A DNA stretch of 64,000 bases from an uncultured Eubacteriales bacterium (GTDB lineage Bacteria > Bacillota > Clostridia > Christensenellales > CAG-138): NCBI GenBank assembly GCA_902786465.1, contig CADACQ010000008.1, forward strand, positions 93,772 through 157,771, in the 5' to 3' direction. Numbering within the stretch: position 1 is the first letter of the stretch; the number at the start of each line of letters is the position of its first letter. Below, piece by piece: positions 24,001 to 39,761 of this stretch. A program made the position numbers and the translations under genes. The notes beneath the pieces are model-generated. The model had not been told where the DNA came from, made no database searches, and saw only the letters and a list, made by a program, of their open reading frames with translations.

Positions 24001-25026
24001 TTACTCCTCATATACCAACGAAATCCCGTGGGCGATGCCCGGTATGCTCTCCCCCTGACAGGCGGACAGGGGGCTCATGAGGGCGCCCGTGGACAGAAAC
24101 AGCACCCGCTTCACCGCCCCCCGCTCGATCTGGGGCAGCACGTGGCTCGCCAGCAGCACGGCGCTGCAGCCGCAGCCGGACCCGCCGCAGTGGTACCCCT
24201 GCTGGGGGCTGAAGATCATGCTGCCGCAGTCCATGTGCCGGTCCTCCAGGTCCAGGTCCGCCTCCGCCGCCAGCTCCCGCAGCATCCGGCTCCCGAAGTC
24301 CCCCAGATCCCCCGTGACGATCCAGTCGAAATCCATCTCCTTCATCCCCCGATCCGCCAAGTGCCGCCCGATGGTGTCAAAGGCGGCAGGGGCCATGGCC
24401 GCGCCCATGTTGTTGGCGTCGGTGATGCCCAGATCCCGGACCCGGCCCAGGGTGGCGGCCTCCAGGCGCACGTGGCGAAAGCCCGTGTGGGGCAGGGGAG
24501 CATCCCCCAGGAGCACGGCCCCGGCGCCGGTGACGGTCCGCTGGGCGTGGGGCGGGGCGGTGGTGCCCATCTCCAGGGGGAAGCGGTACTGGCGCTCGGC
24601 GGTGGAGAAGTGGGAGCTGGCGGCGCAGAGGGCCCGGGTGCGATAGCCCCCGTCCACCAACGTGGCGCCCAGGAGCAAGGCCTCCGTCATGGTGGAGCAG
24701 GCCCCGTAGAGGCCCAGGTAGGGGATGGCGAGCTCCCGGGCGGCGTAGCTGGCGGTGACGATCTGGTTCAGCAGGTCCCCGGCCAGCAGGCACCCCGCCT
24801 CCTCCATGGGCAGGGCCACCCGGGCCATGGCCCGGCAGAGGGCCTTCACCAGCATCTTTCGCTCCCCCTGCTCGAAGGTCTTTTCCCCCAGCCGATCGTC
24901 CTCCAATATCTCGTCGAACACGTGGCCGTAGGGGCCCTTCTCCTCGGCCTTGCCCGCCACGCTGGCGGCGGAGAGCACGTAGGGCCGGTTTTCAAAGAGC
25001 AGCGTGGCGCTGCCTGCCTGTTTCAT
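24001..25026 (-). CDS. spoVAD: Stage V sporulation protein AD
   Basis: 341 residues of the thiolase-like fold. SpoVAD binds dipicolinic acid on the outer leaflet side of the SpoVA channel. Signatures are PYLGLYGACSTMTEALLLG around 128-146, where thiolases carry their Cys, ASSHFSTAERQYRFPLE near 170, and the Cys/Gly-rich YHCGGSGCGC near 285. It forms a spoVAD-spoVAE operon here; spoVAC, normally upstream, is at 51.3-51.7 kb. I could not identify a convincing sigma-G promoter, though a forespore promoter is expected. Confidence 0.9.
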   Translation of the reverse strand: MKQAGSATLLFENRPYVLSAASVAGKAEEKGPYGHVFDEILEDDRLGEKTFEQGERKMLVKALCRAMARVALPMEEAGCLLAGDLLNQIVTASYAARELAIPYLGLYGACSTMTEALLLGATLVDGGYRTRALCAASSHFSTAERQYRFPLEMGTTAPPHAQRTVTGAGAVLLGDAPLPHTGFRHVRLEAATLGRVRDLGITDANNMGAAMAPAAFDTIGRHLADRGMKEMDFDWIVTGDLGDFGSRMLRELAAEADLDLEDRHMDCGSMIFSPQQGYHCGGSGCGCSAVLLASHVLPQIERGAVKRVLFLSTGALMSPLSACQGESIPGIAHGISLVYEE

Positions 25027-28194: not shown

Positions 28195-28223
28195 TTGACA
28201 TCCCAGCCGTTTTCTTCTATGAT
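28195..28223 (+). promoter_or_regulatory. Promoter of the Dlt-like acylation operon
   Basis: TTGACA at 28195-28200, 17-bp spacer, TATGAT at 28218-28223. GGAGG precedes the GTG start at 28252. No other promoter is obvious before 35.3 kb, and gene spacing is tight throughout, so the six genes are likely one transcript. Confidence 0.75.
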
Positions 28224-28251: not shown

Positions 28252-30330
28252 GTGGAGGAGATCCGGGAACGACAACCCCATAGGACCCGATGGCTCTGGC
28301 TCCTGCTGGAGGGGCTGCTGCTCCTGGTCGCTTTGCCCATAGGCGCGTATTGCCTGCTCTATGGGGAGGTGCGCCCCGTGACGGTGTGGGAGCTCACCGG
28401 CAGCTGTCCCCCGGCCTCCGTCCTCCTGCGGGACGGGAGCGAGGGCCACTGGTGCTTCGACACCGGGAAGATCGACTGGCGGAAGACCGGCGACGCTTTG
28501 GTGCTGGTGGCGGGGTCCGCCGGGCCCCGGATCGCCCTCCTGCGCCAGGTGGACACCACGGCCCCCGAAGCCCGGGGCCTTTCCCCGGTGCTGGGGGTGG
28601 ACGAGGAGCCGGGCCCGGAGACCTTTATCGCGGACCTTAGGGACGCCCAGCTGGTGGGCGTTTCCTTCGAGGAGCCCCCCCGGTTCCACGAAGCGGGGAC
28701 CTGGCCCGTGGTGGTGCGCCTCGAGGATCTGTCGGGGAACGTGAGCTTCGTGGAAACCTCCTGCACCATCCTGGGCGCGGTGCCCCGGGTGGACATGGAG
28801 GCGGGGGAGGCGGTGCCGCCCCTCAGCGCCTTCTTGCCCAACGACACGGTGGACGGCCGATTCGTCACCGATATGACCAGCCTGGATACCCGCACCCCCG
28901 GGGTCCGCACCGTAGAGGTGGAGGCCGAAGGGCAGGTGTACGAGACCGCGTTGGTGATCGCCGACACCAGGGCCCCCCGGTGCGCCTTCGAAACGGCGGC
29001 CTATGCCCGGACGGGGCAGGCCCTGGCTCCGGAGGACCTGGTGGCCTGGGCCCAGGACGCCTCGGCCCTGACCTATGCCTTCGATCCCCAGCCCGACTGG
29101 ACGCGGCAGGGGTATCAAAACGTGCAGGTGGCGGTGACGGACGCGGGCGGGAATAGGACCACGGGCACGGTGACGGTCCTCATCTCCGACCTGCAGCCCC
29201 TCGTATGGGAGGCCAGCCGCCGCTGGGTGGCGGGTGCGACGGTCCGCGACCGGCAGCGGGAGCTGGACCCCGCCTTCTCCGGCGAGGTGAAGGTGGCCCG
29301 GTTCGTGCCCAAGGCCCCGGGCTGCTACGATATCAACGCCACCGTGGACGAGGTGCCCTGCATCCAGCGGCTCTACGTGGTGGACACGACGGCCCCCCGG
29401 CTGAGCTTCCCCCGGAAGCTCCAGGCGTACCTCGATCATCCCCGGCCTCCGGCGGCTTTGCTGGAGACGGCGGAGGACGCCACGGCCCTGACCCTTTCCT
29501 ACGTGACCGAGCCCGACTGGTCGAAGGAGGGGCCCCAGCCCGTCATCATCGCGGGGGTGGACATCGCCGGGAATCGGACCGAGATCGAGGGCACGGTGAA
29601 GATCGTCCGGGACACGGAGAAGCCCACGATCCTGGGCGTGGTGAACCAGTACTCCTACATCGGCGAGCCGGTGGCGTACTTCGCCCACGTGTCGGCCACG
29701 GACAACGCCGACGATCCTGAGGACATCGTGATCACGGTGGACAACAGCGCCGTGGACATCTATACCCAGGGCACCTATCTCGTGACCTACCGGGCCACGG
29801 ACCGGGCGGGGAACACCGCCGAAAAGCAGGTGTATCTGTACTTCGTCCGGCCCAGCGTGTCCGACGAGAAGCTGAACCAGAAGGCGGACGAGGTGCTGGC
29901 CACCCTGGTGACCGACGACATGACCAAGGGTCAGAAGGCCTACGCCATCTACCGCTACGTCTACGACACCTATACCTTTAAGGACAATTCGTCCAACAAG
30001 CGGGATTGGAAGTACGAGGCCTGGCGGGGACTCGCCTACCGGCGGGGGGATTGCTTCACCTACTGCGCGGCGGCCAAGGTGCTGCTGGAGAAGATCGGGG
30101 CCAAGGTCATGTTCGTGACCCGGAACCACGCCTTTCGCCACTATTGGCTCATGGTGGACCTGGGTTCGGGCTGGTACCACTTCGACCCCCTGAACAGCGG
30201 TCCCAGCCGGAAGTTCCAGTGCTTCATGCTGACCACAGGGCAGGTCCTGGACCTGTACCCGTTCTTCTGGAAATACGACCAAAGGATCTACCCGGCCACG
30301 CCGGAGACGCCCTTCGTCAAGGATTGGTAA
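28252..30330 (+). CDS. Membrane-anchored transglutaminase-like protein with Ig-like repeats
   Basis: 692 residues, GTG start 7 bases after GGAGG. One N-terminal helix (about 15-38) anchors a large extracellular part. Several beta-rich repeats follow, each opening with a DTTAP- or DTEKP-type strand (near 105, 380 and 460), as in HYR/Ig-like domains; the last contains AVDIYTQGTYLVTYRATDRAGN. The C-terminal transglutaminase-like domain has Cys601 in GDCFTYC, His near 630 in HYWLMVD and Asp near 644 in FDPL. Such domains can be cross-linkers or proteases. It is first in the acylation operon and may bind or process the acceptor polymer or a wall peptide; that is inference. Confidence 0.85.
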   Translation: MEEIRERQPHRTRWLWLLLEGLLLLVALPIGAYCLLYGEVRPVTVWELTGSCPPASVLLRDGSEGHWCFDTGKIDWRKTGDALVLVAGSAGPRIALLRQVDTTAPEARGLSPVLGVDEEPGPETFIADLRDAQLVGVSFEEPPRFHEAGTWPVVVRLEDLSGNVSFVETSCTILGAVPRVDMEAGEAVPPLSAFLPNDTVDGRFVTDMTSLDTRTPGVRTVEVEAEGQVYETALVIADTRAPRCAFETAAYARTGQALAPEDLVAWAQDASALTYAFDPQPDWTRQGYQNVQVAVTDAGGNRTTGTVTVLISDLQPLVWEASRRWVAGATVRDRQRELDPAFSGEVKVARFVPKAPGCYDINATVDEVPCIQRLYVVDTTAPRLSFPRKLQAYLDHPRPPAALLETAEDATALTLSYVTEPDWSKEGPQPVIIAGVDIAGNRTEIEGTVKIVRDTEKPTILGVVNQYSYIGEPVAYFAHVSATDNADDPEDIVITVDNSAVDIYTQGTYLVTYRATDRAGNTAEKQVYLYFVRPSVSDEKLNQKADEVLATLVTDDMTKGQKAYAIYRYVYDTYTFKDNSSNKRDWKYEAWRGLAYRRGDCFTYCAAAKVLLEKIGAKVMFVTRNHAFRHYWLMVDLGSGWYHFDPLNSGPSRKFQCFMLTTGQVLDLYPFFWKYDQRIYPATPETPFVKDW

Positions 30331-30346
30331 GGCTTTGGAGAAACCC

Positions 30347-31384
30347 ATGCAGAAACGAAACTGGTTCGCTCCCATATTCGCCCTCCTGCTCCTCGGGCTC
30401 CTCGTGTGGGGCCTGGGGCGGCTGGTGCGGCCCAAGTACGCCTCCGGGATCACCCTGGAGGGGAGCATGGTGGAGAACTGGTACGCCCATCGAAACGAGG
30501 ACCATCAGGTCCTGTTCATCGGCGACTGCGAGGTCTACGAAAGCTTTTCCCCGGTGACCCTGTTCAGCGAGTTCGGGGCCACCTCCTACATCCGGGGCAG
30601 CGCCCAGCAGCTCATGTGGCAGAGCTACTACCTGCTTCGGGAAGCCCTGAAGACCCAGAGCCCCCGGGCGGTGGTTTTGTCCATCTGCTCCCTCCGGTAC
30701 GCGGAGCCCCAGAGCGAAGCCTACAACCGGATGACCCTGGACGGCATGCGCCTGGGCCGGGAGAAGTTCGAGGCCGTCCGGGCCTCCCTGACGGAAGGGG
30801 AATCGGAGCTCAGCTACTACGTGCCCCTGCTCCGGTATCACGATCGGATCTTCGAGCTCACGGGGGAGGACGCCCGGTATATGCTCCGGGGGCCGGAGCT
30901 CACCTACAACGGCTACCTCATGCGGACGGAACAGGTGCCCTACACCCGGCTGCCGTCGGCCCCGGTGCTTCAGGACCCAGGGTTCGGGGAGAAGCCGGTG
31001 GCCTATCTCGACAGGATAGTGGACCTGTGCCGGGAGAAGGGGATCGCCCTCATCCTGGTGAAGAGCACCTGCCTGTACCCGGCCTGGTACGACGAGTGGG
31101 ACGATTGGCTCGAGGACTACGCCGAGAGGAAGGGCGTCGAATATATCAACGCCATCCCCCGGATGAAGGAGATGGGGATCGATCTTAAGACCGACACCTA
31201 CGACGGGGGCATCCACCTGAACGTCTACGGGGCGGAGAAGTACACCCGGTGGCTGGGGCAGCACCTCTGTGACCGGGGGCTCGTAGAGGATCAGCGGCAG
31301 GACCCCGTGGTGGCGGCCCGATACGACGATCTTGGTCGGCGATACGAACAGGAGAAACAGAGAAGGGGGTCAACGAACGGATGA
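30347..31384 (+). CDS. SGNH-fold acyltransferase-like protein, DltD analogue with Cys nucleophile position
   Basis: 345 residues. One N-terminal helix (about 8-26) places the catalytic domain outside. Block I reads VLFIGDCEVYESF: the residue at the SGNH nucleophile position is Cys61, not Ser. The catalytic Asp/His block is DGGIHLN near 286-290. DltD-type proteins take an acyl group from the MBOAT complex and place it on an extracellular polymer, so this is the likely second transferase. GGAG is 6 bases before ATG 30347. It overlaps the lipoprotein gene by four bases. It lacks close DltD motifs and belongs to another SGNH branch. Confidence 0.78.
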   Translation: MQKRNWFAPIFALLLLGLLVWGLGRLVRPKYASGITLEGSMVENWYAHRNEDHQVLFIGDCEVYESFSPVTLFSEFGATSYIRGSAQQLMWQSYYLLREALKTQSPRAVVLSICSLRYAEPQSEAYNRMTLDGMRLGREKFEAVRASLTEGESELSYYVPLLRYHDRIFELTGEDARYMLRGPELTYNGYLMRTEQVPYTRLPSAPVLQDPGFGEKPVAYLDRIVDLCREKGIALILVKSTCLYPAWYDEWDDWLEDYAERKGVEYINAIPRMKEMGIDLKTDTYDGGIHLNVYGAEKYTRWLGQHLCDRGLVEDQRQDPVVAARYDDLGRRYEQEKQRRGSTNG

Positions 31385-32034
31385 ACACACGTATGCGGAT
31401 AGGAGCCGTCCTTCTGGCGGCGCTGCTGCTGGTCCTGACGGGCTGCGGCGGCTCGGCCCAGCCCACCCAAAAGGAGGGCGTGGTCTATCTGGACCCCAAC
31501 GCCCCCGCGGCTGCCAAGACCCAAAGCACCGCCGCGCCCGCGTCCCAGGCGGAAGCCGCCCCGGATCAGCCGGGGACGGAGCCGCCCGCCGCGGAGGAGC
31601 CGGCCGGGGAGCCCGCGCCGGCCCTGGACCTGTATTTCGAGAGCCAGGGCGTGCGGCTGGAGCCCATGATGGCGGCGGACAAGGTGCTTTTAGCCCTGGG
31701 CCAGCCCATAGGCGTCTTCGAGGCCGACAGCTGCGCCTACATCGGCAAGGACGTCTTCTACTACTATCCGGGCTTCGAGCTGACGGTGAACGAGGTGGAC
31801 GGACAGAACGTGGTCACCGCCATCGCGGTGGTGGACGATACCGTGGTCACCCCCCAGGGCCTCCGGATCTACGACGAGGAGGAGAAGCTCCTGTCCATCC
31901 TGGGCGGGACCGAGGAGAACGGGGTCTACACCTATGAGAGCGGCAAGACGATACTGCTCATCCAGGTGAGGGCAGCCGGGGACGAGGTCCGGCGCATCGC
32001 CACCATGGAGTATCGGGCGGCGGAGGAGGGATAA
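31381..32034 (+). CDS. Lipoprotein of the acylation operon
   Basis: 217 residues. Signal peptide with lipobox LVLTGC (Cys21 or 22), so it is lipid-anchored on the outer face. A Pro/Ala/Glu linker (about 35-75) leads to a small beta-rich domain (about 80-215) beginning LYFESQGVRLEPMMAADKVLLALG and containing YYYPGFELTVNEVDG. The family is not recognised. It is translationally coupled to the SGNH gene (ATGA). It could hold the SGNH protein or polymer near the MBOAT channel; this rests on position alone. Confidence 0.75.
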   Translation: MNTRMRIGAVLLAALLLVLTGCGGSAQPTQKEGVVYLDPNAPAAAKTQSTAAPASQAEAAPDQPGTEPPAAEEPAGEPAPALDLYFESQGVRLEPMMAADKVLLALGQPIGVFEADSCAYIGKDVFYYYPGFELTVNEVDGQNVVTAIAVVDDTVVTPQGLRIYDEEEKLLSILGGTEENGVYTYESGKTILLIQVRAAGDEVRRIATMEYRAAEEG

Positions 32035-32042
32035 ACGTTCCT

Positions 32043-33530
32043 ATGAAAAGCTTTCTATCCTATTTGAATCACACGGCGGACCGGCTGCCGGACAAGCTGG
32101 CCTTCTCCGACGGGGAGACGGGGCTCACCTTCTCTGAGCTTCGCCGGGCGGCGGCCAACGTGGGGGCCTGCCTCATGAACAGCGGCGCCAAGGCCGAGCC
32201 CGTGGGCGTGCTCATGGAGCGGAGCGCCTACGAGATCGCGGCCTTCCTGGGGGTCCTGGAGGCGGGCTGCTTCTACGTGCCCCTGGACGAGCAGATGCCC
32301 CGAGAGCGCCTCGATCGCATCGTCCGGGCCCTGAACCCCCGGTTCATCCTCACGGACCAAAAGAATCTGACCGCAGCGGAGGGCCTGTGCCCGGCGGCGG
32401 AGCATCTGATCTACAGCCGGGCGGCGGCCTTTCCCGGCCCGGATAGGCTTCGGGAGGAGAGCGCAGAGGACGCCCTTTCCTACGTGGTCTTCACCTCCGG
32501 CTCCACCGGGGAACCGAAGGGGGTCTCCATCCGGGAGAGCGCCCTCCTCGATTACGCCGCCACCCTGCCCGACGCCGTGGGCTTCGACGAAAGCCTGATC
32601 TTCGGCATCCAGTCCCCCCTCTATTTCGACGCCTGGCTCAAGGAGCTCTTGGGGGTCATGGTGAAGGGCGGCACGGCCTATCTGCTGCCCCGGGAGCTGT
32701 TCGTGAACCCGGTGTCCCTGATCGAATACATCAACGAACGGAAGATCAACGCCCTCTGCTGGGTGGCCTCCGCCTTCAGTTTGGTGTCGAGGCTTCGGAC
32801 CTTCTACGCCGTGGTGCCGGAGCATCTCAAGCTCATGTGCTTCGGCAGCGAGGTCTTCCCCGTGAAGCAGCTCACCGCCTGGCAGAAGGCCTGCCCCGAC
32901 GCCCGGATCTTCCAGCTCTACGGGGCCACGGAGTGCACGGGCATGAGCTTCTATCACCCGGTCGTCGGCCCCCAGGCCCCGGATCGGCCCGTGCCCGTGG
33001 GCAAGCCCTTCCCCGGCACGAAGCTGTATCTTTTGAACGACGAGGGGCGGCTCGCCGACGAGGGCGAGATCGTCATCGGCGGGCCCTCGGTCATGGCGGG
33101 GTATTATAAGGACCCGGTCCGCACCGCCGCTGCCCTGATCCCGGACCCGGCGGACCCGGAGAGCGGCCAGCTCTGCTACCGCACCGGCGACATCGGCCGG
33201 CTGGACGAGCACGGGGATTTGATCTTCATCGGCCGCCGGGACCAGCAGATCAAGCACATGGGCCATCGGGTGGAGCTGGGGGAGATCGAGGCGGCCGCCC
33301 TGAGTCTCAAGGGGGTCCACGAGGCGGTCTGCATGTACGTAGCCGACCGGCAGCGGATCGACCTCTTCTACACGGGCCCGGCTCAGCCCTGGGATTTGGT
33401 GGTGGGCCTCAAGGTGAAGCTGCCCGGGTACATGACCCCCAACCGGACGGAGCAGCGCGCGGAGCTCCCGCACCTCCCCAACGGGAAGATCGACCGGCGG
33501 GCCATCGAACAAAAGGAGTATGGAAAATGA
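32043..33530 (+). CDS. DltA-like acyl-adenylating ligase
   Basis: 495 residues of the ANL superfamily, the DltA length. Motifs in order: YVVFTSGSTGEPKGVS (P-loop, near 150), FGSEVFPVKQL near 268, QLYGATECT near 293, YRTGDIGRLDEHGDLIFIGRRDQQIKHMGHRVELGEIE (split across motifs near 379-410), and the C-terminal catalytic Lys in LPNGKIDRR near 480. It activates a carboxylic acid with ATP and loads it onto the phosphopantetheine arm of the following carrier protein. D-alanine is the likely substrate by analogy with DltA, but the pocket was not checked. It overlaps the next gene by four bases. Confidence 0.88.
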   Translation: MKSFLSYLNHTADRLPDKLAFSDGETGLTFSELRRAAANVGACLMNSGAKAEPVGVLMERSAYEIAAFLGVLEAGCFYVPLDEQMPRERLDRIVRALNPRFILTDQKNLTAAEGLCPAAEHLIYSRAAAFPGPDRLREESAEDALSYVVFTSGSTGEPKGVSIRESALLDYAATLPDAVGFDESLIFGIQSPLYFDAWLKELLGVMVKGGTAYLLPRELFVNPVSLIEYINERKINALCWVASAFSLVSRLRTFYAVVPEHLKLMCFGSEVFPVKQLTAWQKACPDARIFQLYGATECTGMSFYHPVVGPQAPDRPVPVGKPFPGTKLYLLNDEGRLADEGEIVIGGPSVMAGYYKDPVRTAAALIPDPADPESGQLCYRTGDIGRLDEHGDLIFIGRRDQQIKHMGHRVELGEIEAAALSLKGVHEAVCMYVADRQRIDLFYTGPAQPWDLVVGLKVKLPGYMTPNRTEQRAELPHLPNGKIDRRAIEQKEYGK

Positions 33531-33760
33531 CCTACGAACAGCTTTTGGAGATGCTGCGGGACATGCATCCCGACATCGACTTTGATACGGCGGAGGGGCT
33601 CATCGACCGGAAGGTGCTGACCTCCTTCGACGTGGTGTCCATCGCGGCGGAGCTTAGCGAAACCTACGGCGTGGAGCTGGGGGCCGTGGACATCGTGCCC
33701 GAGAACTTCAACAGCGCCCGGGCCCTCTTCGCCCTGATCGAGCGGATCGAGAACGAATGA
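33527..33760 (+). CDS. DltC-like acyl carrier protein
   Basis: 77 residues, a single carrier domain. The phosphopantetheine Ser is in VLTSFDVVSIAAELSETYG at about residue 33; the residue before it is Thr where carriers usually have Asp. The tail VPENFNSARALFALIERI matches DltC-type carriers. It receives the acyl group from the ligase and presents it to the MBOAT protein at the inner membrane face. It overlaps both neighbours by four bases, so the three proteins are made in coupled amounts. Confidence 0.88.
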   Translation: MTYEQLLEMLRDMHPDIDFDTAEGLIDRKVLTSFDVVSIAAELSETYGVELGAVDIVPENFNSARALFALIERIENE

Positions 33761-35319
33761 CCTTCCTTTCGGGCGGCTTCCTCCTGCTGGTGGGGGCCCT
33801 GCTCATAATCTACTGCGTGCTGCCCAAGCGCTTCCGGTACCTGGCTTTGCTGGGGGGAAGCGTGGTCTTCTACGCCCTGGCGGGCCGGGCGTACCTGCCC
33901 TTCTTGGGGATCACCGTCCTCACGGTCTACGGCGCCGCCCTGCTCCTGGGCAGGAGCCTGGAGCGGCAGAAGGCCTATGTGAGCGAGCACAAGAAGGAGC
34001 TGACCAGGGAGGCCGTCGCCGCCTATAAGAAGAAGGAAGGGAAGAAGCGCACGGCCCTGTTCCTTCTTTGCCTGCTCCTGAACCTGGGGCTGCTGGCGGC
34101 CCTCAAGTACACCGCCTTTCTGCTGGACGCCTTTCGGGCCCCCTGGGAGGTCCACTGGGTGCTGCCGCTTGGCATCTCCTTCTACACCTTCCAATCCCTG
34201 GGCTACCTCATGGACGTGAAGCGGGGCAAGTACCCGCCGGAGCGGCATTTCCTCAAATACGCCCTCTTCGCCTCCTTCTTCCCCCAGATGATCCAGGGGC
34301 CCATCAGCCGCTACGACATGCTCTCCAAGACCCTCTACGAGGGGGCGGACTTAGACATAGATCGCATCGGCCGGGGCCTGGTGCGCATTTTGTGGGGCGC
34401 CTGTAAGAAGCTGCTGGTGGCGGATCGGCTGGCCCCCGCTCTGGGGCTGCTCTTCGGGGCCCAGGCCGCGGATTACCGGGGCGGCTGGGTATTCCTCGGC
34501 ATGGTCCTCTACGCCCTGCGGCTCTACGCCGACTTCACCGGCGGCATCGACATGGCTCTCGGCGTGGGGGAGCTCTTCGGCGTGACCCTGCCGGAGAACT
34601 TCGATCGGCCCTACCTCTCCAAAAACATCGAGGAATACTGGACCCGCTGGCACATGACCATGGGCGGCTGGTTCCGGGACTACGTGTTCTACCCCCTGAA
34701 CGTATCGAAGACCTTCCTGAAGTGGACCAAGGGCCTCCGCACGAAATTCGGCGACAGCTTCCTGTCCCGTCTGCCCCTCTACACCGCCACCCTGGTCACC
34801 TGGCTCGCCACCGGCGTCTGGCATGGGGCGGGCTGGAACTTCGCCCTGTGGGGCCTCACCAACGGGGTGGTCATCATCGCTTCCCTCACCCTCAAGCCCC
34901 TCTACGACCGGTTCCACAGCCGCTTCCCGGGCCTGAAAGAAAGGAAGGGCTACGGGGCCTTCGAGGTCCTGCGCACCTTCCTCCTCATGTGCCTCATCCG
35001 CCTGTGGGACTGCTACGCCGGCCCCGGGGGCGTGTGGGGGGCCTTCTCGTCCCTGTTCACTACCTTCAATGGGGGCGCGGTCCTTTCGGGCCTCTCCGCC
35101 CTGGGCCTCTCGGCCGGGGACTGGCTGGTGCTCCTCGTTATGGCGGCCCTGATGCTCCTGGTCTCCCTGAAGAAGGGGGAGGGCTCCTTCCGCACCAAAT
35201 ATCTGGCCGACCCTTGGAAGCTCTGGTTCGCCGCCGCGGCCCTGCTGATCCTGGTCCTGCTCCTGGGCGCCTACGGCCCCGGCTACACGGCCTCGGACTT
35301 CATCTACGGGCAGTTCTGA
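33757..35319 (+). CDS. MBOAT-family O-acyltransferase with C-terminal acyl-shuttle motif (DltB/AlgI-like)
   Basis: 520 residues, about 11-12 helices. MBOAT signatures: PLGISFYTFQSLGYLMDV near 133, FFPQMIQGPISRYDML near 170, YWTRWHMTMGGWFRDYVFYPL split near 293-313, and the invariant His near 355 in ATGVWHGAGWNF. It moves the acyl group from the intracellular carrier across the membrane. The protein ends FIYGQF. This fits the hexapeptide with central Tyr reported at the C-terminus of DltX and fused to MBOAT proteins in other systems, where the Tyr carries the acyl group to the second transferase. No separate dltX gene is present, which fits the fusion. Confidence 0.9.
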   Translation: MTFLSGGFLLLVGALLIIYCVLPKRFRYLALLGGSVVFYALAGRAYLPFLGITVLTVYGAALLLGRSLERQKAYVSEHKKELTREAVAAYKKKEGKKRTALFLLCLLLNLGLLAALKYTAFLLDAFRAPWEVHWVLPLGISFYTFQSLGYLMDVKRGKYPPERHFLKYALFASFFPQMIQGPISRYDMLSKTLYEGADLDIDRIGRGLVRILWGACKKLLVADRLAPALGLLFGAQAADYRGGWVFLGMVLYALRLYADFTGGIDMALGVGELFGVTLPENFDRPYLSKNIEEYWTRWHMTMGGWFRDYVFYPLNVSKTFLKWTKGLRTKFGDSFLSRLPLYTATLVTWLATGVWHGAGWNFALWGLTNGVVIIASLTLKPLYDRFHSRFPGLKERKGYGAFEVLRTFLLMCLIRLWDCYAGPGGVWGAFSSLFTTFNGGAVLSGLSALGLSAGDWLVLLVMAALMLLVSLKKGEGSFRTKYLADPWKLWFAAAALLILVLLLGAYGPGYTASDFIYGQF

Positions 35320-35331
35320 TCCTTTCCACAA

Positions 35332-35361
35332 AAAAGAGCACGGCCGAAGCCGTGCTCTTTT
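35332..35361. terminator. Bidirectional intrinsic terminator
   Basis: AAAAGAGCACGGC, loop CGAA, GCCGTGCTCTTTT: a 13-bp perfect stem between the MBOAT gene and the convergent nifU gene. Confidence 0.92.
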
Positions 35362-37611: not shown

Positions 37612-37620
37612 TGGTATGAT
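37612..37620 (+). promoter_or_regulatory. Extended -10 promoter of pcrA
   Basis: TGGTATGAT at 37612-37620 with no clear -35. It overlaps the ATG at 37616, which therefore cannot be the start; ATG 37649 fits. Confidence 0.55.
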
Positions 37621-37648
37621 AGAAAAAAAGAGACAGGAAAGGGACAGC

Positions 37649-38917
37649 ATGGACAGCTTAGCAGGATTGAACGAAGCCCAGCGCCGGGCGGTGGAGGCCA
37701 CCGAGGGGTATATCCGGGTGGTGGCCGGGGCCGGCACCGGCAAGACCCGGACCCTGACGCGGCGCTACGGGTATCTCGTCGAGGCCGGGGGCGTGAGCCC
37801 GGGCCACATTTTGGCCGTCACCTTCACCAACAAGGCCGCCAACGAGATGAAGCAGCGGGTCCGGCACATGGTGGGGGACGGGGACACGGGCTACATCTGC
37901 ACCTTCCACGCCCTGGGGCTCATGATCCTGAAGGAGGACCTGCACACCCTGGGCTGGCCCCAGAACTTCCTGGTGCTGGACGAGGAGGACAAGAACTCCC
38001 TCCTTCGGACCGTGTTCGAGGACATGGGCATGACGTTGAAGGAGATGAGCCTCCACAAGGCCGCGGACCTGACCGACGACATGAAGTGGGACCTTGCCTA
38101 CGTGCCCCTCCTCACCGGGGAATCCGACGGCCCCCTCCTCGACCTCATCGACCGGGAGCAGAACCGCCGGCGGCAGATGTTCTACCGGTACCTCTACGAG
38201 CAGCGGAAGATCTACGCCCTGGACTTCGAGGATTTGGTGGACATGGCGGTGGCCCTGCTGCGGCAGAACCAGGAGGTCCGGGAGAAGTGGGCCAGGCGCT
38301 TTGAGTACGTGATGGTGGACGAGTTCCAGGACATCGACGGCAAGCAGTACGAGCTCGCCGACATGCTCTCCTCCTGCCATAAGAACCTGTTCGTGGTGGG
38401 GGACCCGGACCAGACCATCTACACCTGGCGGGGGGCGGACGTTCACTACATCCTGGATTTCCCCAACAAGTACCCGGGGGCCCAAACCGTGGTCCTCACG
38501 GAGAACTACCGGAGCACCCCCGAGATCTTGGCCGCCTCCAACGCCCTCATCGCCAAGAACCAACAGCGGGTGGAGCGGGACCTCCGGGCCGTGAACCCCT
38601 CGGGCCCCGTGCCCCCCTACTACCACGCCAAGGACGTGGGGGCGGAATCGAAGTTCATCGTCTCCCGGCTCCAGGAGCTGAAGGAAGCCGGGAACGACTG
38701 GCGGGACATGGCCATCCTCTATCGGGCCCACTACGTGTCCCGGAGTTTGGAGGACGCCCTCCTCCACGCCAAGATCCCCTACGCCGTCCGGCCGCAAGGA
38801 GATCAAGGACGCCATCTGCTACCTTCGGATGCTGGCCATGGGGGACGATCTCGCCTTCAGCCGGGTGGTGAACGAGCCTCGCCGGGGGGTGGGCAAGAAG
38901 CGCATGGCCTTCCTTAG
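37649..38917 (+). CDS. pcrA: UvrD/PcrA-type DNA helicase, N-terminal fragment (frameshifted)
   Basis: Superfamily 1 helicase. Walker A is AGAGTGKTRTLTRR near 28-41; motif Ia TFTNKAANEMKQRV; motif II VMVDEFQDID near 225; motif III GDPDQTIYTWRGA near 255; motif IV NYRSTPEILAASNALI near 290. The frame is lost after KIPYAV (about 38790), and the last 40 or so residues are unrelated. The missing bases fall exactly where the highly conserved GGxxFxxR segment before KEIKDA should be. SD GGAAAGGG supports ATG 37649. Confidence 0.88.
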   Translation: MDSLAGLNEAQRRAVEATEGYIRVVAGAGTGKTRTLTRRYGYLVEAGGVSPGHILAVTFTNKAANEMKQRVRHMVGDGDTGYICTFHALGLMILKEDLHTLGWPQNFLVLDEEDKNSLLRTVFEDMGMTLKEMSLHKAADLTDDMKWDLAYVPLLTGESDGPLLDLIDREQNRRRQMFYRYLYEQRKIYALDFEDLVDMAVALLRQNQEVREKWARRFEYVMVDEFQDIDGKQYELADMLSSCHKNLFVVGDPDQTIYTWRGADVHYILDFPNKYPGAQTVVLTENYRSTPEILAASNALIAKNQQRVERDLRAVNPSGPVPPYYHAKDVGAESKFIVSRLQELKEAGNDWRDMAILYRAHYVSRSLEDALLHAKIPYAVRPQGDQGRHLLPSDAGHGGRSRLQPGGERASPGGGQEAHGLP

Positions 38918-39761
38918 GGCCTACGCCCAGGAGAAGGGCTGCAGCCTGTACGGGGCGCTCCTCGAGAATCTGGACCACCCCATGATCCAGTCCTCCGACG
39001 CCGCTTCCTTCGTGACCCTGCTGAAAGCCTACGAGGACCACGAGGGCATGAAGATGAGCGAGCTATTGAGCCACCTGCTCACCGAAAGCGGGTACATGAA
39101 GATGTTGAAGCAGCTGGGGGACGGGGACCGGCTCGATAACATAGCGGAGCTGCTGCAGAGCTTAGAGGAATATGAAACCAGCGCAGGCGAAGATTGTACC
39201 CTGGAGGATTTCCTCTCGGAGGTGGCCCTCTTCACGGACCGGGACCGGGAGGATCGGAAGGACTCCGTGAAGCTCATGACCGTCCACAACGCCAAGGGGC
39301 TGGAGTTCCCCCACGTGATCGTGGCGAGCCTCAACGAGGGCGTCTTCCCCAGCCGCAAGACCGACACCGCCGAGCGCATGGAGGAGGAGCGCCGCCTCTG
39401 CTACGTGGCCTGCACCCGGGCGGAAAAGACCCTGACCCTCACCGAGGCCGCCGGGGTCTCCCACGAGGGCACGGCCCGGTACCCCTCCCGGTTCCTGTTC
39501 GAGATGGGGAAGGAGCACCTCAACTATCTCGTGGAGCTGGACCCGGCCTGGGAGGGGGAGGCCCGGCGCTACATCCGATCCACCCAGCGGCGCATGGCCC
39601 CGCCCCAGGACCCCCTCGCGCCCGGCGTCCGGGTGGAGCACGCCCTGTTCGGCAAGGGCACCGTTTTGGAGGTGGAGAAGGACCAGCAGTGCGTCGTCAT
39701 CCGATTCGATTCCGGCCGGGAGCGGACCATCCGCTTCGACGGCCCCATCCGCATTCTATAG
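38829..39761 (+). CDS. pcrA: UvrD/PcrA-type DNA helicase, C-terminal fragment
   Basis: Continues the helicase; in-frame homology (RKEIKDAICYLRMLAM) starts before the apparent ATG, at about 38796. Motif V is VKLMTVHNAKGLEFPHV near residue 155 and motif VI EEERRLCYVACTRAEKTL near 188. It ends with a small beta-barrel tail (VRVEHALFGKGTVLEVEKD), the Tudor-like C-terminus of PcrA. The two fragments together have normal PcrA content but are short (about 700 residues). Confidence 0.86.
   Translation: MLAMGDDLAFSRVVNEPRRGVGKKRMAFLRAYAQEKGCSLYGALLENLDHPMIQSSDAASFVTLLKAYEDHEGMKMSELLSHLLTESGYMKMLKQLGDGDRLDNIAELLQSLEEYETSAGEDCTLEDFLSEVALFTDRDREDRKDSVKLMTVHNAKGLEFPHVIVASLNEGVFPSRKTDTAERMEEERRLCYVACTRAEKTLTLTEAAGVSHEGTARYPSRFLFEMGKEHLNYLVELDPAWEGEARRYIRSTQRRMAPPQDPLAPGVRVEHALFGKGTVLEVEKDQQCVVIRFDSGRERTIRFDGPIRIL

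Follow-up and report, generated by a model that had tools for sequence, protein, structure and literature searches.

Is a six-gene operon that resembles the D-alanylation (Dlt) pathway, found in an uncultured Eubacteriales bacterium (Christensenellales; CAG-138), a Dlt system or a surface-acylation route of another kind? The operon occupies positions 28252-35319 on the + strand of the window, by which we mean the whole 64,000-nucleotide stretch analysed (GenBank assembly GCA_902786465.1, contig CADACQ010000008.1, positions 93,772 to 157,771), and encodes a transglutaminase-like protein (TGL), an SGNH protein, a lipoprotein (LPP), an adenylating ligase (LIG), a carrier protein (ACP) and a membrane-bound O-acyltransferase (MBOAT). 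An initial annotation, made from the letters alone, took these genes for a complete Dlt-like acyl-export route with the acyl-shuttle motif fused to the MBOAT protein. The core of that proposal holds: a carrier-fed, shuttle-fused MBOAT/SGNH route is highly likely, and for the reading as a whole we think it probable that the operon encodes a surface-acylation pathway working through a cysteine and carrying what is probably an acidic amino acid. "Dlt-like" suits the logic of the pathway; membership in the Dlt system is not borne out, as the DltA, DltB and DltC models all match under their cut-offs and the ligase pocket is not that of DltA. This variant is real, widespread and, within the literature searched, undescribed.

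Fused shuttle motif and SGNH cysteine

The MBOAT protein does end in FIYGQF, as first annotated, and it is the sole open reading frame in the window that ends in a shuttle motif. Its Tyr517 is kept in all 66 rows that reach that column (MBOATs above 600 bits); homologues lacking the terminal Tyr, which the initial annotation had named as possible counter-evidence, are not among them. His299 and His356 are invariant (67/67 rows), and 56 of the 58 MBOAT ends listed for the cysteine set described below read FIYxxF or FIYxxY, the two exceptions being an extra MBOAT ending in FLYFRF (L146) and, in L176, the first part of a frame that is split. The DltX model PF12459 has no match in the genome that holds the window, which is 71% complete, so that a fused shuttle without DltX stands as proposed. 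The terminal motif, conserved as it is, proved less distinctive than had been thought: FxYxxF-type ends occur on many MBOATs with no carrier nearby and are ordinary by themselves, and it is the combination of fused motif and carrier that is unusual. The other two MBOATs of this genome were considered as an alternative route and set aside, their flanks having no LIG or ACP profile match.

In the accessible portion of PMC12148441 (2025), fused-shuttle pathways use acyl-CoA and have no carrier protein, Ser is the nucleophile of the SGNH proteins covered, and auto-acetylation of the PatA Tyr is shown experimentally, with a Tyr step described also for DltX. An operon with both a fused shuttle and a carrier runs against that generalisation, at least as it is worded there, and our literature searches, which covered work other than preprints, returned no case of the two together.

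The second departure lies in the SGNH protein. A profile built from 19 SGNH proteins and run at a threshold of 1e-20 on a class sample of 391 Clostridia genomes matched 91 of them, 49 at 436-551 bits (the window's own genome included) and the next at 196. Block I contains Cys in all 49 high-scoring genomes (as GDCE or GDCD), in place of the Ser read in all 16 SGNH domain rows of 12 lower-scoring loci that were fetched; these came from 10 of the remaining 42 matching genomes and, as second loci, from two cysteine genomes. The same division runs through the loci compared, which comprised 80 public loci and 60 stretches fetched from the class sample; 99 of these enter the table of partner counts, from which L126 (a duplicate of the window's locus) and loci without an SGNH match (L034, L041, L046 and others) were left out. 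Cysteine is present in 66 of the 99 (438-598 bits), and of the 33 others (29-234 bits) Ser could be read in 30, the alignments of L076, L077 and L081 stopping short of the site. Cys61 and His290 are kept in 67/67 rows and Asp286 in 66/67, and a DxxxH-type block V spacing is found in 66/66 cysteine loci, the usual spacing among Ser proteins being DxxH. A quick tree of 63 SGNH rows, which left out every second cysteine row and four other rows below 80 bits, kept the trait columns and has several long Ser branches, places the cysteine proteins on one side of a branch with SH-aLRT 99.

An AlphaFold2 model of the protein (pLDDT 87.6) has Cys61 opening the helix that follows the first strand, which in the model is the SGNH nucleophile place. 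Foldseek returned mostly GDSL/SGNH enzymes as its top PDB matches, with weak E-values (best 5e-4; PatB at rank 27, DltD at rank 30), and the GD(C) and D-H blocks of the superfamily layout are both kept. The label given in the initial annotation is retained, the cysteine being what it overlooked: by alignment, a Cys-His-Asp set takes the place of Ser-His-Asp. Because no second Cys is kept at >=97% among the 67 rows, there appears to be no general disulfide partner within the protein; Cys228, invariant in a set of 19 rows, was considered as a partner of Cys61 and dropped, since it is not kept at 97% in the 67-row set. Judged from these sequences, Cys61 is likely to be the nucleophile. In the available part of a 2022 SGNH review (PMC9487903), Ser is the sole nucleophile described, and our searches returned no SGNH enzyme with a Cys nucleophile. 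A natural SGNH family with Cys at this place would switch the last step from an ester to a thioester.

Ligase pocket, racemase and candidate substrate

The ligase passes the amino-acid adenylation model TIGR01733 (323 bits, cut-off 317) and falls far below both DltA models, TIGR01734 (224 bits against 559.85) and NF003417 (229 against 476). Its pocket was read by alignment with LgrA and 13 clostridial DltA-like ligases, a comparison that the initial annotation had suggested making against DltA: Asp196 is in place for the amine, and Ala197, Lys200 and Gly268 stand where DltA has Leu197, Met200 and Cys268. In the part of PMC8972799 available to us, these three DltA residues form the cavity for the D-Ala methyl, and the corresponding part of PMC4176424 gives DltA with a changed Cys a relaxed preference for D-Ala; the enantiomer-selecting Cys (Cys268/269) is Gly268 in LIG. 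Position 200 (GrsA position 239) is Lys or Arg in 55/55 LIG proteins, five of which come from Ser-type loci, and in 0/13 clostridial DltA-like ligases, and a pocket code DAKW[ACV]GLGMK is common to 47 of the 55. By its residues, then, the predicted ligase is not DltA. Its top PDB match, linear gramicidin synthetase at 311 bits, had raised the candidate of a glycine-specific enzyme, which was rejected, as this score sums two adenylation domains (135.7 + 175.0). The initial annotation had also pointed to a separate dlt operon as something that might account for surface esters; in the 71% of the genome at hand there is no second Dlt-type ligase, the next best AMP ligases scoring 68 and 51 bits against 1136 for LIG itself.

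The carrier protein scores 16.4 bits on the DltC model (cut-off 68), and its phosphopantetheine Ser33 is conserved in 66/66 relatives. The residue before this Ser is Thr in the window's genus (LTSFD) and Asp in most relatives (LDSLD). In genome G239, LIG and ACP lie apart from the other operon genes with a decarboxylase-like gene of the pyridoxal phosphate (PLP) fold III between them (L258:4950-8180), an arrangement in which decarboxylation of the loaded amino acid is possible and which is reminiscent of butirosin biosynthesis, where a glutamyl carrier is decarboxylated.

A partner that the initial annotation missed, its six genes being otherwise correct, is a TIGR00035-type racemase found in or beside the operon at 28 loci, namely 27 of the 66 cysteine loci and L046, whose contig ends in the MBOAT gene. 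None of the 33 other loci has it (Fisher P 2e-6; the loci are related, not independent), and at 19 of the 28 it lies directly between TGL and LIG. Six racemases scanned, that of the window's own genome among them, score 198-213 bits on TIGR00035 (cut-off 93), four of the six also pass the cysteate racemase model, and both catalytic-type Cys residues are kept in 29/29 aligned proteins. A racemase within the window's operon was looked for and is not there; the genome's own copy is unlinked, on contig C15. Each of the 12 genomes of the window's genus has one racemase over the cut-off, which is of little information because such racemases are common in controls. For the LIG-bearing form only, we consider that the substrate side chain is probably acidic, and we lean slightly towards the D form. 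Our searches returned no acidic D-amino acid in connection with an MBOAT.

Operon layout, partners and distribution

The six genes run in one direction at the positions first assigned to them, as the reading-frame check bears out (Table 1). Of the tight junctions described in the initial annotation, three of five are four-base overlaps (SGNH/LPP, LIG/ACP and ACP/MBOAT), and the other two are gaps, of 16 nt (4 nt with the TTG start of the SGNH gene) and 8 nt. The most likely start of the SGNH gene is the ATG at 30347, because GGAG precedes it; an in-frame TTG lies at 30335. One upstream promoter and one downstream terminator had been proposed, and both were recovered. Two promoter-like sites of equal quality occur in 7.6 kb, where shuffles predict 0.8. 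The terminator hairpin, missing from the list of the scan that gave the promoter and found by folding, follows directly on the MBOAT stop (-23.5 kcal/mol, z -6.6, 0/200 shuffles as good). The family labels agree with our searches as far as general families go, with PF01841 (TGL), PF00501 (LIG) and PF03062 (MBOAT) above their cut-offs, PF13472 on the SGNH protein below its own (30.2 against 32.9), and no Pfam match for LPP or ACP; they do not extend to Dlt membership, as LIG, ACP and MBOAT all lie far under the curated cut-offs, the MBOAT at 164 bits on the DltB equivalog TIGR04091 (cut-off 375).

Table 1. Features of the operon and its signals (window coordinates; residue codons in brackets)
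Feature	Position	Strand	Evidence
Sigma-70-like promoter, TTGACA-17-TATGAT	28195-28223	+	consensus scan, 11/12 matches
TGL, membrane-anchored or secreted transglutaminase-like protein with Ig-like domains	28252-30330	+	PF01841, 35.2 bits
TGL catalytic-type Cys601 (30052-30054), His630, Asp645	within 28252-30330	+	alignment; codons checked
SGNH acyltransferase-like protein	30347-31384	+	alignment, AlphaFold2 model, Foldseek
SGNH Cys61 (30527-30529), Asp286, His290 (DTYDGGIHLN)	within 30347-31384	+	alignment
LPP, lipoprotein with lipobox Cys22, YfeY/DUF4309-like domain, Cys118 (31732-31734)	31381-32034	+	AlphaFold2, pLDDT 84
LIG, stand-alone amino-acid adenylating ligase; pocket Asp196, Ala197, Lys200 (32640-32642), Gly268	32043-33530	+	TIGR01733
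ACP, 77-aa carrier protein; phosphopantetheine site Ser33 (33623-33625)	33527-33760	+	weak carrier matches
MBOAT, 520 aa; His299 and His356	33757-35319	+	PF03062, 60 bits; DltB match in PDB
Fused acyl-shuttle hexapeptide FIYGQF at the MBOAT C-terminus, Tyr517	35299-35316	+	codons checked
Terminator hairpin, 13 bp, outer pairs A-U, T run on 3' side	35332-35361	+	fold

The gene set goes beyond chance because it recurs across class Clostridia, as the initial annotation had proposed to check, and two arrangements predominate. Members of the window's genus (L035, L036, L061) have TGL-SGNH-LPP-LIG-ACP-MBOAT; outside the genus the usual order is TGL-LIG-ACP-MBOAT-SGNH-LPP. The MBOAT protein finds a match in 12/12 genomes of the genus (best per genome E 3.3e-187 or lower) and, at 1e-30, in 88 of the family's 103 genomes, the weaker matches including many other MBOATs. 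In the class sample the cysteine-SGNH system is present in 49/391 genomes, compared with 17/391 for DltA-like ligases (threshold 1e-120), so that in Clostridia it may outnumber Dlt as an amino-acid export route. No genome carries both; about 2 would be expected to, a difference that is not significant, and mutual exclusion was discarded as evidence.

TGL and LPP follow the cysteine type closely. With profiles built from cysteine loci and thresholds of 20 bits (TGL) and 30 bits (LPP), TGL is found in 56/66 cysteine loci and 0/33 others (Fisher P 1e-17) and LPP in 59/66 and 0/33 (Fisher P 1e-19), loci again being related and not independent. Among the ten cysteine loci without TGL, eight are cut at a contig end (L039, L042, L045, L065, L160, L168, L170, L175) and L047 lies on a 7.8-kb contig; where a separate LPP is missing, its domain is fused to the SGNH C-terminus in three loci of one genus (L158, L162, L167) and two more (L148, L047) are near a contig end. 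The Cys-His-Asp of TGL is kept in 90/90 aligned rows above 30 bits, the LPP Cys118 in 68/68 rows and the lipobox Cys in the 18 first aligned. The LPP model weakly resembles YfeY and YjgB (DUF4309), the Foldseek matches being 2qzb and 4ygt (E 2e-3 to 3e-3).

Matches to LPP of 19-22 bits were seen in L056, L057 and L067. Together with L058, these loci have a carrier with IDSID, an MBOAT ending in FIYAAY and two to three tandem Ser-type SGNH genes, and the ligase of L056, L057 and L067 has no amine-binding Asp; by sequence they would be a third carrier-linked kind with a non-amino-acid loader. Elsewhere in the window, a UvrD/PcrA-like helicase in two overlapping frames (37616-38917 and 38829-39761, together 37616-39761) may be frameshifted, and a SpoVAD-like gene on the - strand (24001-25026) would suggest a spore former, both judged by eye.

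A proposed relay, its rivals and known systems

In the relay that we infer, LIG would adenylate an amino acid, probably acidic and probably D-configured (D-Asp, or a similar compound like D-cysteate), and would load it on ACP Ser33 as a thioester. The MBOAT protein, probably via His356, would move the acyl group from the carrier to its own Tyr517, as an aryl ester outside the membrane, and the FIYGQF peptide would hand it to SGNH Cys61, so that a thioester would form at the step where Dlt and PatAB have a serine ester. From Cys61 it would pass to the acceptor, with LPP partnering the SGNH protein and TGL taking part in, or acting on, the final product. Because acyl transfer from a thioester tends towards amines, and because this is also the chemistry of transglutaminases, the product could be an amide formed with an amine group on a surface glycan or protein, reached perhaps by way of LPP Cys118 or TGL Cys601. 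We hold a part for TGL in the final transfer as a tentative suggestion, and the entire chain, from D-Asp-type acid through carrier thioester, MBOAT Tyr ester and SGNH Cys thioester to amide, as a rather doubtful one. Were it true, this would be the first MBOAT pathway built for amides, adding negative and not positive charge; an acid like D-Asp would in any case give a surface-charge effect opposite to that of D-alanylation.

Several observations weigh against the favoured reading of a cysteine-based, acidic amino-acid pathway. The 17 kb available for L182 contain neither TGL nor LPP, L174 has no LPP, and L041 reads TGL-LIG-ACP-MBOAT with no SGNH match in its stretch. TGL matches of 31-38 bits in L082, L097, L103, L106 and L107, which are other MBOAT loci with no SGNH match, rule out a TGL exclusive to the cysteine type, just as L066, a Ser-type SGNH protein with DxxxH spacing, rules out a strict coupling of that spacing with Cys. 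The racemase is not in the window's operon and was not seen in 39/66 cysteine loci, some of which are truncated at a contig end; racemases over the cut-off occur in 6/14 control genomes, and the TIGR00035 model describes a subfamily of amino acid racemases that is not limited to aspartate. The putative role of Lys200 as a reader of the side-chain carboxylate is one that we take by analogy from the codes of glutamate-activating domains of nonribosomal peptide synthetases (NRPS). The DltA yardstick is itself mixed, since Cys occupies the DltA Cys column in no more than 5 of the 13 DltA-like ligases, and no more than 3/391 genomes pass the DltA cut-off. Finally, six genomes of genus g87 as well as G381 and G304 keep the cysteine SGNH protein with no LIG anywhere at 1e-30. 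As an observation apart, the TGL-like genes of L082, L097, L103, L106 and L107 stand near MBOATs without a carrier profile match.

The genomes without LIG raise the most serious rival, that the cysteine SGNH protein, LPP and TGL work as an extracytoplasmic machine of their own (say, a thioesterase or a protein or glycan crosslinking system) to which LIG-ACP-MBOAT is one supplier among several. Seven g87 genomes have the cysteine SGNH protein, LPP and 2-6 TGL genes with no LIG beside them and no MBOAT in the stretch; all seven carry elsewhere an operon of a large FkbH-like protein (one of the seven was scanned: TIGR01686, 268 bits), a carrier and an MBOAT ending in FIYARI or FIYATI. Because six of the seven have FkbH-like/carrier/MBOAT genes instead of LIG, the donor is not fixed, and the extracytoplasmic core may be able to work with more than one acyl group; the f32 genomes G381 and G304, for their part, retain MBOAT, SGNH and LPP. 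LIG is nevertheless in the same stretch in 49/66 cysteine loci and so is the usual supplier. We consider this rival unlikely as it stands, and partly compatible with the favoured reading. Among the loci with this MBOAT-free cysteine SGNH, LPP and multi-TGL arrangement (L183 and L186-L191), GT2 and GT87 neighbours were found on scanning L183, with similar ones seen by eye in L186, L190 and L191.

A clostridial form of the D-alanylation operon, with a diverged DltA, D-Ala on a teichoic-type polymer and the fused shuttle as its sole real change, would explain the shared ligase-carrier-MBOAT-SGNH logic, the matches to all three Dlt models and the one PF04464 glycerophosphotransferase of this genome. 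The matches, as we have seen, are far under cut-off, the residues that hold D-Ala are replaced, and the linked racemase is of an Asp/cysteate type. Operons with DltA-like ligases in the class also look different: in the 13 fetched from the 17 matching genomes, the MBOAT frame is 384-410 aa without the motif (13/13), and 11 have a separate small open reading frame ending in FxYxxF, none being seen in L270 and L279 with the filter used. PF04464 was found in 14 of 20 genomes chosen among carriers of the system and not in the other 6, which was too uninformative to identify an acceptor from teichoic genes. This explanation seems to us distinctly improbable. Weaker still, and very unlikely, is a redox or structural role for Cys61 in an SGNH relative that is no acyltransferase, to which the sub-threshold Pfam SGNH score lends itself and against which stand the place of Cys61 in the model, the conservation of His290 and Asp286 and the lack of a second conserved Cys.

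The favoured pathway can be set beside four known or newly found systems. With PatAB/AlgIJX-type O-acetyltransferases it shares the C-terminal FxYxxF on an MBOAT with an invariant His, and a separate SGNH protein; those systems differ in their acyl-CoA donor, their lack of a carrier and their Ser-His-Asp SGNH partner, where this operon has a predicted ligase and carrier and a cysteine. With NRPS-type adenylation domains it shares a ligase that passes TIGR01733, and the butirosin proteins BtrJ and BtrI are a case of stand-alone amino-acid loading onto a carrier; here, in contrast, the carrier gene shares its operon with a membrane acyltransferase and does not belong to a peptide or antibiotic line. 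The FkbH-like/carrier/MBOAT operons (L250-L256) likewise have a carrier (7/7) beside an MBOAT with a C-terminal Tyr motif, and differ in an FkbH-type loader in place of LIG and in the absence of an SGNH profile match from those stretches; they are a second kind of carrier-linked, shuttle-fused MBOAT, which perhaps exports glyceryl or another FkbH product. With DltXABCD, finally, the operon has in common the amino-acid ligase, the carrier, the MBOAT, the SGNH protein and the Tyr shuttle motif, and it differs in a shuttle fused to a longer MBOAT in place of a separate DltX, in its non-DltA pocket, in Cys61 for the nucleophilic Ser of DltD, in the additional TGL and LPP, and in the racemase linked to it in many relatives.

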